Of a stretch of 46,659 nucleotides of DNA, positions 34,103-39,690 are shown piece after piece (position 1 is the first letter of the stretch; each line of letters begins with the position of its first letter). The stretch comes from Desulfobacterales bacterium. GTDB lineage: Bacteria > Desulfobacterota > Desulfobacteria > Desulfobacterales > JAUYIZ01. The notes beneath the pieces are model-generated. The model ran no database searches. It saw only the letters and a program-made list of their open reading frames with translations, and was not told the origin of the DNA. The position numbers were made by a program, and so were the translations under genes. The stretch lies in NCBI GenBank assembly GCA_030688615.1, contig JAUYIZ010000099.1:1-46659 (forward strand), read 5' to 3'.

Positions 34103-36616
34103 ATGAAGAAAAACACGACACCGGTCTTCAAGAGATCCCTGTTTTCCTGGGTTTTTTCCGATAATCTCAAGCTGCAGATAATTTTACTCCTCGTCATCGT
34201 CGTTACCGTATTTGCCAGAGTCGTTCCCCTGGAAATGCAGAAAAGAATCATTAATCTTGCGATCAATCTGAGAAAAATCGATCTGCTGTTCTTTTATTGC
34301 GGTATTTATCTGGTTTCCGTGGTGGCCGCCAGCGGGCTTAAATACCTGATCAATATCCTCCAGACATTGATCGGCCAGCGGTCCACGGCCCGCATGAGAA
34401 AGGAGACCTACCACCACATTTTAACCCTGCCTTTGAGCTTTTTCAGGAAAACCCAACCCGGCATGGTGGTATCCTCACTGATCAATGAACTTGCCACCGC
34501 CGGTGATTTTATCGGCATGGCCGTATCGATCCCCATTACCAGTATTTTGACCCTGCTTGCTTTTGCAGGATATTTGCTGTGGTTAAATCCGCTCCTGGCC
34601 ATGGTCTCCATGAGCATTTACCCGTTTGCTTTTTTCCTGCTGCCCCTGTTACAGAAACGGGCCAACCGGGAAAACAAAAAACGTGTGGATATCACCCGCA
34701 ATTTGTCCAGCCGGATTGCCGAATCCATCAGCGGCATTCATGAAATCCAGGGAAACGGCGCATTCCGGCTCGAAAACCATAAGTACGACATCCTGGTAGA
34801 GCAGCTTATGAAAACAAGAATCGTCTGGAATCTCTACCGGTTCGGCATCAAGGTGACCAATAATTTTTTCATGAACCTGAGCCCGTTTCTCATCTTTGTT
34901 CTGGGAGGGTACTTGGCCATTAACGGCCGGCTGGAACTGGGGGCGCTGGTGGCATTTTTATCCGCCCAGGAAAAACTGTACGATCCATGGAAAGAACTCA
35001 TCGAATTTTACCAGGCCTACCAGGAAGCCGCCGTGAATTACACCCGGACCATGGAATATTTTGCCGCCATGCCCGAACACGCCCTGGAACCGGAAGGACG
35101 GAAACCCTATGTCCTTGAGAGCAACCTGGTCCTGAAAAACGTGTCTTTTGTAACTGACGACGGCATTGCGCTGCTCAAAGATATTTCATTTTCTCTGGGT
35201 TCCGGCCAGCATATGGCGCTGATCGGATTTTCAGGCAGCGGGAAAAGCACCCTGGCCCTGTGCATCGGCCAGCTCTACAAGTACACCGGCGGGGAGATTC
35301 TCATCGGCGACCGGCCCGTGGCCGGTTTGACCAAAAAAGACATCACTTACAACATTGGTTTTGTATCCCAGAGTCCTTTTATTTTTGACGGAACCATTCA
35401 GGAGAACCTTCTTTACGCCTGCTCGGCCAAAATCGGTGACGACGTCGGTGACGGCCACCATCTGCCGACCCTCGACGACATGATCGAGATCCTCCAGCAG
35501 ACCGGTTTTTTTGTGGATGTTCTGGGTTTTGGCCTCAATTCTACCTTAAACCACGCCCAAAGCGTCCGGCTTATCTCCCAGATCATTCGTATCCGTGAAA
35601 AATTCCAGGATGAATTCGGACATTCCCTGTCCGATTATGTTGAATTTTTTGACCCGACGCGATATCTTGAGTATTCATGTCTGGCTGAAAACCTCACCTT
35701 CGGCGCTTCGACCCAGACTGCTTTTCAAAACGAAAACCTGACCCAAAACCCCTATTTTTTGAAATTTATCGACTCGGCCGGCCTTACCCAATCCCTTTTG
35801 GCCCTGGGGAGCCAGCTTGCCAAACAGACCATCGACATTCTGGGGCATTTGACGCTCGACGATATGCTGTTTTCACAAAGCCCGATCCGGCCCAATGAAC
35901 TGGCGCACTTTATAACCCTGACGGATCAATTGGACGATACCCGGCTGGACCGGCTGGCCCCGGAAGAGCGTCAGGGGCTGCTGACCCTTGCCTTGAGATT
36001 CACCCCCGGGATTCACAAAATGATCGCCATGCCGCAACCTGTGAAGGATCTGGTTCTCAAAGGACGCGTCCTCTTCAGGAAAAAGATCATGGCCGATCAT
36101 CCGGATACGTTTGCTTTTTATGACATGTCCGGCTATATTTTCTCCCAGACTATTTTGAATAACATCTTCTTCGGGAAAACCAAAGGCGACAACCCCGTCG
36201 CCCAGAACAAAATCAACCAGAGCGTCATTCAACTGCTCGTCGAAGAGGACTTTCTGGAGCCCATACTTTATATCGGTCTGCAGTTTCAAGTGGGCACCAA
36301 GGGCGACAAGCTGTCCGGCGGTCAACGGCAAAAACTGGCGATCGCCAGGGTACTTCTCAAGACACCCAGGCTGATGATTATGGACGAAGCCACATCGGGG
36401 CTGGACAACAAATCCCAGGCGCGCATCCAGAACCTCCTGGAAACCCGCTTGAAAGGCAAAACCACCCTCATCGCGGTCGCGCATCGGCTCGACATAATTA
36501 AAAACTATGACCGGATCGGCGTGATGAAAGCCGGAAAACTTGCCGAAATGGGGACCTACAGCGACCTGATGGCAAGGAAAGGATTGTTATATGAACTGGT
36601 TACCGGGAAAAAATGA
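34103..36616 (+). CDS. ABC exporter with a ~220-residue expansion inside the nucleotide-binding domain
   Basis: An 837-residue fused permease-ATPase of the exporter type. Residues ~20-320 form the six-helix membrane domain. The ATPase domain has Walker A GFSGSGKST (375-383), the Q-loop SQSPFIF (Gln423), signature LSGGQ (737-741), Walker B LMIMDEATS (757-765, Glu762) and the H-loop His794. Walker A to signature usually spans ~105 residues but spans ~360 here. The pattern following the Q-loop (F..TI..N....G, then a helical stretch) occurs three times: about 426-440, 521-535 and 679-692. Only the last leads into LSGGQ. All catalytic motifs are intact, so the protein should hydrolyse ATP as a dimer. 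The cargo is unknown. The next gene starts inside its 3' end. Confidence 0.88.
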   Translation: MKKNTTPVFKRSLFSWVFSDNLKLQIILLLVIVVTVFARVVPLEMQKRIINLAINLRKIDLLFFYCGIYLVSVVAASGLKYLINILQTLIGQRSTARMRKETYHHILTLPLSFFRKTQPGMVVSSLINELATAGDFIGMAVSIPITSILTLLAFAGYLLWLNPLLAMVSMSIYPFAFFLLPLLQKRANRENKKRVDITRNLSSRIAESISGIHEIQGNGAFRLENHKYDILVEQLMKTRIVWNLYRFGIKVTNNFFMNLSPFLIFVLGGYLAINGRLELGALVAFLSAQEKLYDPWKELIEFYQAYQEAAVNYTRTMEYFAAMPEHALEPEGRKPYVLESNLVLKNVSFVTDDGIALLKDISFSLGSGQHMALIGFSGSGKSTLALCIGQLYKYTGGEILIGDRPVAGLTKKDITYNIGFVSQSPFIFDGTIQENLLYACSAKIGDDVGDGHHLPTLDDMIEILQQTGFFVDVLGFGLNSTLNHAQSVRLISQIIRIREKFQDEFGHSLSDYVEFFDPTRYLEYSCLAENLTFGASTQTAFQNENLTQNPYFLKFIDSAGLTQSLLALGSQLAKQTIDILGHLTLDDMLFSQSPIRPNELAHFITLTDQLDDTRLDRLAPEERQGLLTLALRFTPGIHKMIAMPQPVKDLVLKGRVLFRKKIMADHPDTFAFYDMSGYIFSQTILNNIFFGKTKGDNPVAQNKINQSVIQLLVEEDFLEPILYIGLQFQVGTKGDKLSGGQRQKLAIARVLLKTPRLMIMDEATSGLDNKSQARIQNLLETRLKGKTTLIAVAHRLDIIKNYDRIGVMKAGKLAEMGTYSDLMARKGLLYELVTGKK

Positions 36617-37118
36617 CACCTGCACCACCTGCGAGTATCAGGAAAATCTGGATCTGTTGCGGCATATCTATTTTTTTTCAGGCATCCCCCTGGATGCCCT
36701 CAAACTCTTTGCCTACCTTTGCACCCGGGAATCGTTTAAACCGGATGATTATCTGTTTCATCAAAACGATCCCGCCGGCCGCGCTTTTTATTTCATATCC
36801 GGTCAGGCGCGCCTGACCTTTCACTCCGACGGCAGAGAGCTGGTGATTCGAGACTATAAAGTGGGCGACTTTTTAGGCGGTCTGACCCTGATGGGGAACA
36901 TCCGGCGCCTTTTTTCCCTGACCGCCCTGACGGAAACGACCTGTCTGATCATGTCCCGGAATAAATTCACCAAAGCACTGGAAAATTTTCCGGGCCTGTT
37001 GCCCATAGTCACCAACGTACTGATTGACGAACTCGTGCGCTGGGAAGAACGGTTTTTAGACAGCAGCCTTGAAAAGTGCGCCGAATGCATGCGAAAGGTC
37101 GGGGTCAGCCTGATATGA
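36591..37118 (+). CDS. Cyclic nucleotide-binding-fold protein with two CxxC motifs, no HTH
   Basis: The 175-residue protein has one cNMP-fold beta-barrel (residues ~28-135: FFSGIPLDALKLFA, RAFYFISGQARLTF, YKVGDFLGGL). It ends without a DNA-binding domain. The phosphate-binding part departs from the usual FGE...RSA pattern: GG stands in place of GE and RLF in place of RSA, so cAMP or cGMP binding is doubtful. CTTC (11-14) and CAEC (163-166) flank the fold and could form a metal or redox site. It overlaps the ABC gene by 26 bases and the kinase gene by 4, so it probably senses a signal for that operon. Confidence 0.82.
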   Translation: MNWLPGKNDTCTTCEYQENLDLLRHIYFFSGIPLDALKLFAYLCTRESFKPDDYLFHQNDPAGRAFYFISGQARLTFHSDGRELVIRDYKVGDFLGGLTLMGNIRRLFSLTALTETTCLIMSRNKFTKALENFPGLLPIVTNVLIDELVRWEERFLDSSLEKCAECMRKVGVSLI

Positions 37119-37561
37119 CGTACGGTCATGAAGTTTCATTCCGACTGACCAACCAGTCCTCCGAGCTGGACACTTTGTTCCAGAAGGTAACCGCCTTCTG
37201 TCAATCCATCAAACTGTCCAAAAAAAATACATTTCAGGCCGGGCTGGTATTGGAGGAGCTGTTTACCAACATCGTCAAGTACGGCTATGCCGATCAGGGG
37301 AAGCACCGGGTTGATTTCACCCTCGATTACAAAGATGAAACCCTGATATTCAAAATCGAATACGACGGGATGCCCTTCAGTCCGGATGACGTGGCCCAGC
37401 CCGACATCCAATGCCGGCTGGAAGACCGAAAATTCGGAGGCCTCGGAATTCATTTTATCAGACATTGCATGAACGATTTTTTTTGCGAGCGGCGTGGCGA
37501 CAAAAATATCATAACCGTAATAAAAACTTGCCCGACAAGGAAGACAAATGGAAATTGTTGA
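37115..37561 (+). CDS. RsbW-like anti-sigma factor/serine kinase (HATPase)
   Basis: A 148-residue GHKL ATPase of the RsbW/SpoIIAB type. The N-box is LVLEELFTNIVKYGY (Glu47/Glu48 and Asn52), then IEYDGMPFSPDD (G1 box), then GGLGIHFIRHCMN (G2 box). Such proteins phosphorylate a STAS partner and hold a sigma factor or other target. Its partner is encoded next with a 14-base overlap. No sigma factor gene is visible nearby, so the target may be another protein. Confidence 0.9.
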   Translation: MTYGHEVSFRLTNQSSELDTLFQKVTAFCQSIKLSKKNTFQAGLVLEELFTNIVKYGYADQGKHRVDFTLDYKDETLIFKIEYDGMPFSPDDVAQPDIQCRLEDRKFGGLGIHFIRHCMNDFFCERRGDKNIITVIKTCPTRKTNGNC

Positions 37562-37880
37562 AAAAAAGCTGAATGATATTCATATTCTCCGGATCCAGGG
37601 GCGGCTGGACTCCCGGACGGCGCCGGAATTGGAAAAACGGGTTGAGGATTCCATGGGGAACGGCACATTACAACTGATCTTGGATTTCCAGGAACTGGAA
37701 TACCTATCCAGCGCCGGGCTCCGGATCATTCTGAAGACCGCCAAGGACCTTAAACGCGCCAACGGCAAGCTCATTTTGTGCGCCGTCGAAGATTATATCA
37801 AAGAAGTATTTGAAATATCCGGATTTGATACGTTTCTTATAATTGTTGCCGATGTGGATCAAGCCGTGGCCATGTTCTAA
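37548..37880 (+). CDS. STAS-domain anti-sigma factor antagonist
   Basis: A 110-residue single STAS domain. The phosphorylation site is probably Ser55 in YLSSAGLRI, aligned with Ser58 of SpoIIAA. It should alternate between free and phosphorylated forms under control of the RsbW-like kinase and a phosphatase not seen here. It ends the plus-strand operon and overlaps the dynamin-like gene end-to-end by 4 bases. Confidence 0.92.
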   Translation: MEIVEKKLNDIHILRIQGRLDSRTAPELEKRVEDSMGNGTLQLILDFQELEYLSSAGLRIILKTAKDLKRANGKLILCAVEDYIKEVFEISGFDTFLIIVADVDQAVAMF

Positions 37881-39280
37881 TCCGCCTCCTGGTTCTCGAG
37901 GGCCGACAATTCGTTGAGGGCTTCGCGAATTTCCGCCGCGCCCTGGTCGCAAACCCTTTGAACCGCTGAATATTCCTGTTTGACTTCCTTCAGGGAGAAT
38001 TTCCCGGACGTTTGGGTCAGATAGTTTTCAACCAGTTTTCGGACCGCATGCCAGCTGTCGCGCCGGGTTTGAGTATCCACAGGCGTTAATTTGTCCAGGC
38101 TCTGCAAGGCATCCCGGTGGTAGGAGGACGTAAAATACCTTACCAGCAGCGTCACCCATAAAAACATGAATGCCAGCGCCGTAACCCCGCCGACCCCCAG
38201 CAGGGTTCGCTGATCCAAACCGGCAAAAACAGGAGTTAAAGCCAGCGCCCCGGTTGCGCCGATGCCCCCGAGGATGCTGAGGACAGCCCCGGTCAAGCCG
38301 GATTTAATCCGCAGCTTGCGAACTGCCCTGCGGTAACTGATCAGCGCCTGCAGGAAATGAGACAACCGTTCGCCGTGGGTCTCCACGAAAGTTGCCAGAT
38401 TATCCAGGCGATAACGGGGGGCCTGCAGGAGCACTTTTTTCAATTCTTCCTGCTGATTTTCAAGATATGGCAGGAAATCAGCCCCGAACCCCTCGTTTTT
38501 TCCGGAATCCGACAGGGCCGTGGGCGAGTACGTCAGATGAATCATAGGGATATCTTTACGGCCGGTAATTTGCGACAGATTCCAGCAGAGGGTGCCGTAC
38601 ACCCGCAGCAAATCGTTCAGGGAGGCGCACTCATCGATGCGGTTGAGCACAAATATCAGCCTGTCCTCAAAGGTGCGCGCCGCCAGCGTTTCCCGGATGC
38701 TGGTATAGGCCTCGCGAATGGTTCCGGCTTTGTGAGGATCAAAAAGGACCAGCACAAGATCGGCGATTTGAGCCAGATCGCCGATCACTTCCTGATAATT
38801 ATATCCGCGGCTGCGCTCGGTAATGCTGTCGAGCATTCCGGGGGTGTCAATGATGGCAAAATTTTTTAAAAACGGAGAATTGACCTTTTTCAACCGGAAA
38901 TGAGAGGCAAACCGTTGTCCATGTTTTTTTAACATGGCAAAAGGGTACTCTGGGTCATTGAGAAGAAATTTTCCGTCGCGGGCCTCAATGATACGCACGT
39001 GGCCGTCATCGGCTGCCGAATCATCATAGGTGATCACCGTAAATGAATCATCCGTCGGCGCCTGGCCCGTGCCTTGAATTTTTGCCCCGAGAAACTCATT
39101 GATCAGGGTGGACTTGCCGGAAGAATAGTTGCCCAGCACCAGCACCTGCGGCTGCCATTTGATATTGCTTTCCAGGGGCACGTCACTGTACCCGTAACGC
39201 AGCGCCACAGGCGTCAGATGGTCCGCCACCATTGCCACGATCTCTTCCCGAAGGGAATGAACATAATTTTCACGATACAT
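37877..39280 (-). CDS. Dynamin-like GTPase with two membrane segments
   Basis: The 467-residue protein has a dynamin/EHD-type G domain: GNYSSGKS (50-57), DTPGML (145-150) and NRID (213-216). Two hydrophobic segments follow (about 329-352 and 360-382) and then a charged helical end. Bacterial dynamins reshape or tether membranes. It is the last gene of a minus-strand run with PqqD-like, duplicated, secreted and transporter genes; the 20-base gap suggests co-transcription. The membrane segments suggest fixed insertion rather than reversible binding. Confidence 0.85.
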   Translation of the reverse strand: MYRENYVHSLREEIVAMVADHLTPVALRYGYSDVPLESNIKWQPQVLVLGNYSSGKSTLINEFLGAKIQGTGQAPTDDSFTVITYDDSAADDGHVRIIEARDGKFLLNDPEYPFAMLKKHGQRFASHFRLKKVNSPFLKNFAIIDTPGMLDSITERSRGYNYQEVIGDLAQIADLVLVLFDPHKAGTIREAYTSIRETLAARTFEDRLIFVLNRIDECASLNDLLRVYGTLCWNLSQITGRKDIPMIHLTYSPTALSDSGKNEGFGADFLPYLENQQEELKKVLLQAPRYRLDNLATFVETHGERLSHFLQALISYRRAVRKLRIKSGLTGAVLSILGGIGATGALALTPVFAGLDQRTLLGVGGVTALAFMFLWVTLLVRYFTSSYHRDALQSLDKLTPVDTQTRRDSWHAVRKLVENYLTQTSGKFSLKEVKQEYSAVQRVCDQGAAEIREALNELSALENQEAD

Positions 39281-39300: not shown

Positions 39301-39690
39301 CTATTTTAAACCGATCACGCCCCTTTTCCCCAGATCATGTAAAAACCGGGTCACGGCCACCTCGGCTTCTTTGGGATGCAGTTGGTATTGACGGGCAAAT
39401 TCATCAATCATCCGGCGAACCGACCGCTTTCCGTCGATCAGGGACCAGACGGCGGTCCCCAGAATATCCAGCTGAAGTTTTTTTGGGGTTATCCGGTTTT
39501 TTCCCGGCATCTTTCCTGTCCATTTCATCAGGCCGGCAACCCAGGGCCGGATTTGCCGGGGATAGGATAAAACGACTTCGCCGCTTTCCAGGTAGGCCTC
39601 CCGGACATCCCTATTTCTGACCGGCCGGGATTGCAGGGCCTCGTTCCGGGTGATCGTGCCTGCCGGGTGTTTTTTTTCAGAGGCTTTCAT
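39301..39690 (-). CDS. PqqD-family protein
   Basis: The 129-residue product ends with a PqqD-like winged fold: ILGTAVWSLIDGKRSVRRMIDEF and EVAVTRFLHDLGKRGVIGL. PqqD proteins bind leader peptides and present them to modifying enzymes. Residues 1-80 are an unusual basic and tryptophan-containing extension. No radical SAM peptide-modifying enzyme or short precursor gene was recognised beside it, so a RiPP role is unproven. Its ATG overlaps the upstream 297-codon gene by 14 bases. Confidence 0.78.
   Translation of the reverse strand: MKASEKKHPAGTITRNEALQSRPVRNRDVREAYLESGEVVLSYPRQIRPWVAGLMKWTGKMPGKNRITPKKLQLDILGTAVWSLIDGKRSVRRMIDEFARQYQLHPKEAEVAVTRFLHDLGKRGVIGLK

Follow-up and report, generated by a model that had tools for sequence, protein, structure and literature searches.

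A conserved variant of ABC exporters in which the front half of the helical subdomain is present in three copies

Few parts of ABC ATPases are as constant as the helical subdomain, through which the ATP site and the membrane domain communicate. MsbA and other type I exporters share the TMD fold, a single TMD-NBD chain and canonical Walker A and B motifs, Q-loop, LSGGQ signature and switch His. Exporters of the NHLM/bacteriocin family are paired with cNMP-fold proteins, and repeated helical segments are not known to us from these exporters. In the partner-switching pairs SpoIIAA/SpoIIAB and RsbV/RsbW, a STAS protein with a phosphorylatable SSAGLR site is combined with a HATPase carrying an N-box. 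In MlaFEDB, the STAS protein MlaB binds and controls the ABC ATPase MlaF (PMC7367683).

We analysed a window of 46,659 nucleotides (the whole stretch of DNA taken from contig JAUYIZ010000099.1 of a Desulfobacterales bacterium), in which four overlapping genes encode an ABC exporter, a cNMP-fold protein, a HATPase and a STAS protein (Table 1). Our literature search found no published description of the exporter family to which this ABC protein belongs. One candidate from the Methylobacterium literature, an ABC gene pair beside cytochrome bd genes, was rejected as another family.

Table 1 Features of the exporter locus, with coordinates in the window
Feature	Coordinates	Strand	Remarks
ABC exporter half-transporter (TMD + NBD), helical segment in three copies	34103..36616	+	837 aa ORF
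Type I exporter transmembrane domain	34166..35059	+	Residues 22-319; ABC_membrane (PF00664), E=2.4e-29
Walker A GFSGSGKST, intact	35225..35251	+	Residues 375-383
Copy 1: Q-loop strand + SPFIFDGTIQENLLYA...GFGL	35360..35548	+	Residues 420-482; N435 invariant
Lead 2: helix 488-505 + strand VEFFD	35552..35647	+	Residues 484-515; R498 invariant
Copy 2: YLEYSCLAENLTFGA...LALGSQLA, no signature motif	35630..35827	+	Residues 510-575; N530 invariant
Copy-2-specific helical hairpin (LAPEERQGLLTLALRFTPG)	35843..35998	+	Residues 581-632; no Pfam family
Lead 3: helix 645-665 + strand FAFYD	36011..36106	+	Residues 637-668; R655 invariant
Copy 3: YIFSQTILNNIFFG...YIGLQFQVG	36104..36298	+	Residues 668-732; N687 and G691 invariant; runs into LSGGQ
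Signature LSGGQ, sole one in the protein	36311..36325	+	Residues 737-741
Walker B LMIMDE, catalytic Glu intact	36371..36388	+	Residues 757-762
Switch (H-loop) His794	36482..36484	+	
cNMP-fold protein, overlaps ABC gene	36591..37118	+	175 aa; degenerate phosphate-binding cassette (GGLTLM...RRLFSLTA)
RsbW/SpoIIAB-like HATPase_c_2, overlaps cNMP gene	37076..37561	+	
RsbV/SpoIIAA-like STAS protein, overlaps HATPase gene	37548..37880	+	Conserved SSAGLR serine site

The ABC protein (34103-36616) has the organisation of a type I exporter, a single chain in which the ABC_tran NBD comes after the ABC_membrane TMD. The ABC_tran match (E=6.9e-26) is split into two stretches. Walker A, the Q-loop (Gln at residue 423), LSGGQ, the Walker B Asp-Glu (Asp at 761) and the His-switch are all intact. 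The distance from Walker A (375) to LSGGQ (737) is 362 residues, and it is 104 in L020, an ordinary exporter from the same order; these values are close to the ~360 and ~105 given in the first-pass annotation. A helical subdomain of normal length takes up ~105 residues between Walker A and the signature, and the span of 362 therefore marks the protein as a variant within the exporter superfamily, not a typical member of it. The MsbA model TIGR02203 gave the best NCBIfam score, yet this score (286.8, against a cut-off of 602) leaves the protein outside the MsbA family. Compared with MsbA and other type I exporters, the window protein has ~250 extra residues between the Q-loop and the signature, and these are built from repeats of the helical segment.

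The tripled unit comprises ~60 residues, from the TIxEN helix to the Gly-Leu turn, and corresponds to the front half of the helical subdomain. The long lead helix and its strand are present twice, not three times, and the continuation into LSGGQ is found in copy 3 only. We considered the lead helix and strand as a copy either of the signature helix and Walker B or of the strand preceding the Q-loop; neither was supported, so that the repeated unit is limited to the front half. The first-pass annotation had described the helical subdomain as triplicated. This wording is too strong: the front half is tripled but the whole subdomain is not, copy 2 has an extra hairpin (~581-632) and module 2 has no relative in the PDB by Foldseek. 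Its other readings of the segment fared better. The three motif stretches are all there, at the residues it gave for copies 2 and 3 and at 426-439 rather than 427-440 for copy 1; the lead-ins before copies 2 and 3 match as it had said; and LSGGQ at residues 737-741 is the single signature, at the end of copy 3.

We assessed the repeat, for which a self-comparison of the residue range had been suggested, by aligning 65 homologues and comparing sub-alignments with HHalign (profile-profile). The windows scored were the copies U1 (420-482), U2 (510-575) and U3 (668-732) and the leads (478-535 and 634-692). Scores were 52.6 for U1-U2, 49.3 for U1-U3, 65.2 for U2-U3 and 85.8 for lead2-lead3, far above the controls: 60 pairs of windows drawn at random from this alignment gave a mean of 10.2 (sd 2.1, max 15.2), and column-shuffled versions gave maxima of 14.9-18.1. 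In the same order, the scores were 38.8, 42.4, 52.6 and 66.0 with Desulfobacterota rows alone and 49.6, 39.2, 66.6 and 83.6 with alphaproteobacterial rows alone. When compared with the NBDs of 20 ordinary exporters, copies 1, 2 and 3 scored 60.6, 34.9 and 159.0, the shuffled value being ~11 +/- 2. None of the 65 homologues deviates at the Asn of ENL in any copy (N435, N530, N687) or at the Arg of either lead (R498, R655). Judged by these sequence comparisons, the repeat is real.

The structure predicted with AF2 (alignment of 59 rows, leaving out plasmid-derived rows) has a mean pLDDT of 85.5, with most of the insert near 90. Every copy is modelled as a strand, a loop and a short TIxEN helix followed by two helices, and long lead helices are found at 488-505 and 645-665. 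Module 2 alone (residues 484-668) gives a confident fold (pLDDT 92.6, pTM 0.87). Pfam assigned no consistent family to module 2. The profiles in two clades, the parallel secondary structure and the confident fold of module 2 strongly support the earlier suggestion that an internal duplication gave rise to extra helical modules. The best Foldseek matches to the whole model, TM287/288 and PCAT1, are ordinary exporters and are uninformative on the insert.

Full-length orthologues (53-67% identity) were found in related Desulfobacteraceae-type genomes, and divergent full-length homologues (26-28% identity) on Rhizobium plasmids. A model of the insert (278 positions) matched in 61 out of 194 genomes of the order, and family matches were present in 59 out of 190 alphaproteobacterial genomes. 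Insert-model matches were full-length except for contig-edge fragments, decayed or partial copies, and ordinary exporters matched over the last 80 positions only. A search for homologues with one, two or three modules had been proposed; three-copy forms were found, and no one- or two-copy form was found with the insert model in the order, Pseudomonadota, Cyanobacteria and Bacteroidota, although the absence in the Cyanobacteria and Bacteroidota samples is weak because they include no known positive. Three copies are a fixed trait of the family. In a tree built on residues 20-424, with the repeat columns excluded, a branch with SH-aLRT 100 separates the family from the rest, some outgroup rows being long branches, and the Desulfobacterota and the alphaproteobacterial homologues form sister clades (86 and 100). 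A single origin of the family is supported, and one amplification prior to the split between the two is the simplest reading.

A second paralogue set in Desulfobacterota (L031, L032:1925-6625, L033, L034, L121) has the cNMP gene and no HATPase/STAS pair; in L032 the second paralogue lies ~3.5 kb from the main copy, and L033 has low-complexity loops (NCVDLG repeats) within the insert. A 1567-aa frame in L032 was considered as a fusion and rejected as an overlapping open frame. In another genome, a broken second copy (G054:C1:3698657-3700109) is reduced to fragments with an in-frame TGA.

The sister clades differ in their active sites. We checked five catalytic positions (the Walker A Lys and Ser/Thr, the Walker B Asp and Glu, and the switch His), and the full catalytic set was found in 32 out of 32 members of the window's clade and in 0 out of 33 of the alphaproteobacterial clade. 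The alphaproteobacterial homologues (L094, L095, L122-L153) have degenerate Walker A and B motifs (e.g. GSGKEE, LLVLNEAT) with conserved TMD and repeat residues. ATP hydrolysis has probably been lost in this clade, judging from these residues, and the conservation of the repeat residues in it indicates that the repeats are kept by selection. The cNMP partners form a rough mirror image: the decayed ABC proteins mostly go with a canonical cassette (GEIAIL..PRTA) and the intact ones of Desulfobacterales mostly with a degenerate one (GGLxLL..RRLFS). This is not strict, as L113 is intact in both and the fused forms (L180-L184) look degenerate in both. In several alphaproteobacterial genomes the ABC-cNMP pair is divergent to a glycosyltransferase cluster, and in R. 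etli glycosyltransferases are directly upstream of it; these neighbours hint at an envelope glycan or glycolipid as the substrate. Two loci (L177:1835-8573 and L179:10834-16279) have a divergent glycosyltransferase/histidine-phosphatase cluster followed by a peptide/microcin-C-like ABC ATPase.

The cNMP gene directly follows the ABC gene in every Desulfobacterota locus with downstream sequence except L116, and is also beside it in R. etli p42e and in 29 out of 30 alphaproteobacterial loci. L116:4595-8059, the only such case seen, has the ABC homologue followed by HATPase and STAS genes. Five homologues (L180-L184), whose NBDs are the most decayed in the family, carry the cNMP domain as a C-terminal fusion. 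Gene adjacency and C-terminal fusion make a physical association likely, and the cNMP-fold protein thus likely contacts the ABC transporter. The near-constant cNMP-type neighbour or fusion also suggests that the extra pieces are a control surface. That they serve as docking surfaces for the regulatory proteins of the following genes, as the first-pass annotation had ventured, is plausible and is partly strengthened by gene order and fusion. The window cNMP protein departs from the canonical cassette (G-E-x-A...R-[ST]-A). Its C-terminal tail CAECMRKVGVSLI (37058-37115) contains a CxxC...GVSL(I/V) pattern, conserved in Desulfobacterales and absent from the alphaproteobacterial partners, and is possibly a metal or redox site. 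The alphaproteobacterial cNMP protein matches the 'bacteriocin-type transport-associated protein' model TIGR03896 weakly (31.9, cut-off 161). Unlike NHLM/bacteriocin exporters, the window exporter has no peptidase domain.

Outside the main Desulfobacterales clade the HATPase/STAS pair occurs in only a few neighbours, and its SSAGLR site and HATPase N-box are kept across the clade. A STAS protein with a phosphorylatable Ser in tandem with a HATPase_c_2 kinase is the partner-switching arrangement, and the domains are those of SpoIIAA/SpoIIAB and RsbV/RsbW. In contrast to these pairs, the window pair sits 3' of an ABC exporter and a cNMP gene, not of a sigma factor gene, and its proteins score under the equivalog cut-offs. 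As in MlaFEDB, a small STAS protein is encoded beside an ABC ATPase, and MlaB bound to MlaF offers a structural precedent for control of such an ATPase by STAS. MlaFEDB, however, has separate subunits with MlaE and MCE proteins, whereas in the window TMD and NBD are fused in one exporter chain that carries the additional helical copies, and the STAS protein is accompanied by an RsbW-type kinase; no match to MlaE or MCE was found among the five genes scanned (34103-39280). A gene for a dynamin-type GTPase (PF00350; 37877-39280) is convergent with the operon, and many orthologous loci also have, close to the operon, the small gene found here at 39301-39690.

We lean towards a regulated type I exporter in which the added modules are a platform for the cNMP-fold partner and, in this clade, also for the RsbW/STAS pair. 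The protein would work as a homodimer of the MsbA-like type. In a single ancestor, the front half of the helical subdomain would have been amplified to three copies within one continuous NBD, and in the model copy 1 comes after the Q-loop, copy 3 comes before LSGGQ, and copy 2 with the two lead helices forms a compact module between them. The Desulfobacterota form, which keeps every ATPase residue, would pump by the usual ATP switch. By their predicted position, the extra modules belong to the lever linking Q-loop and signature, and a protein bound there could control NBD closure, holding or releasing it. The constant partner would be the cNMP-fold protein of the next gene, through a putative contact. 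In the window clade, the RsbW-type kinase and the RsbV-type STAS protein would probably set the state of the transporter through phosphorylation-controlled binding, in the way proposed for MlaB acting on MlaF.

Alternatively, the insert could be an unrelated helical domain that entered the subdomain and whose TIxEN-like motifs are convergent. This is very improbable. Against it stand the scores between copies (49-65, with controls reaching about 16), which were replicated in two clades, and the identical invariant Asn in all three copies; the module 2 profile, when compared with the PDB, lands in register on the flippase PglK precisely at the TIxEN stretch, if weakly (E=0.17). Such an origin would account for the extra hairpin in copy 2, the doubled lead that is unlike both the signature helix and the strand ahead of the Q-loop, and the lack of a Foldseek relative in the PDB for module 2 (best E=2.2); this last result weighs little because there was no positive control with an excised ordinary helical subdomain. 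The modules might instead be purely structural, bracing the NBDs or intracellular loops or preventing dissociation, with the cNMP protein bound elsewhere, e.g. at the C-terminus. The fused homologues, in which the cNMP domain follows the NBD C-terminus and would thus be near the bottom of the NBD, fit such a brace, as does the retention of the modules where catalysis is lost. We nonetheless find it rather doubtful, since ordinary exporters do without a brace and the constant co-occurrence of modules and cNMP partner would be a coincidence.

The HATPase and STAS genes could encode a separate partner-switching (anti-sigma) pathway, located in the operon but with no effect on the transporter; the pair might instead have a distant sigma factor as its target. 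Both proteins match models of anti-sigma factors and antagonists, and the alphaproteobacterial clade and the second Desulfobacterota paralogue clade have the modules without the pair. On the other hand, the genes overlap in the window, their order is conserved in most orthologues, and L116 keeps the pair beside the ABC gene where the cNMP gene is missing. We give the independent pathway a sizeable but minority share of our belief. Since the alphaproteobacterial clade retains the modules although its ATPase has decayed and the HATPase/STAS pair is missing, the role of the modules cannot be merely STAS tuning of ATP hydrolysis. Together with the exporter TMD, the three copies and a cNMP protein whose nucleotide-binding cassette is intact may there have outlived the ATPase as a regulatory module, and gating or flipping would be powered by module movements under cyclic-nucleotide control instead of ATP turnover, a proposal that we put forward as speculative and on present grounds unlikely.

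The tripled segment is a real, conserved architectural variant among ABC exporters. Specialists are likeliest to be surprised by the sister clade whose ATPase has decayed. With 0/33 intact active sites against 65/65 conserved repeat residues, the role of the lever without ATP hydrolysis becomes directly testable. An amplified helical subdomain, fixed in two phyla and tied to a sensor protein, is a natural experiment on the control of this lever.
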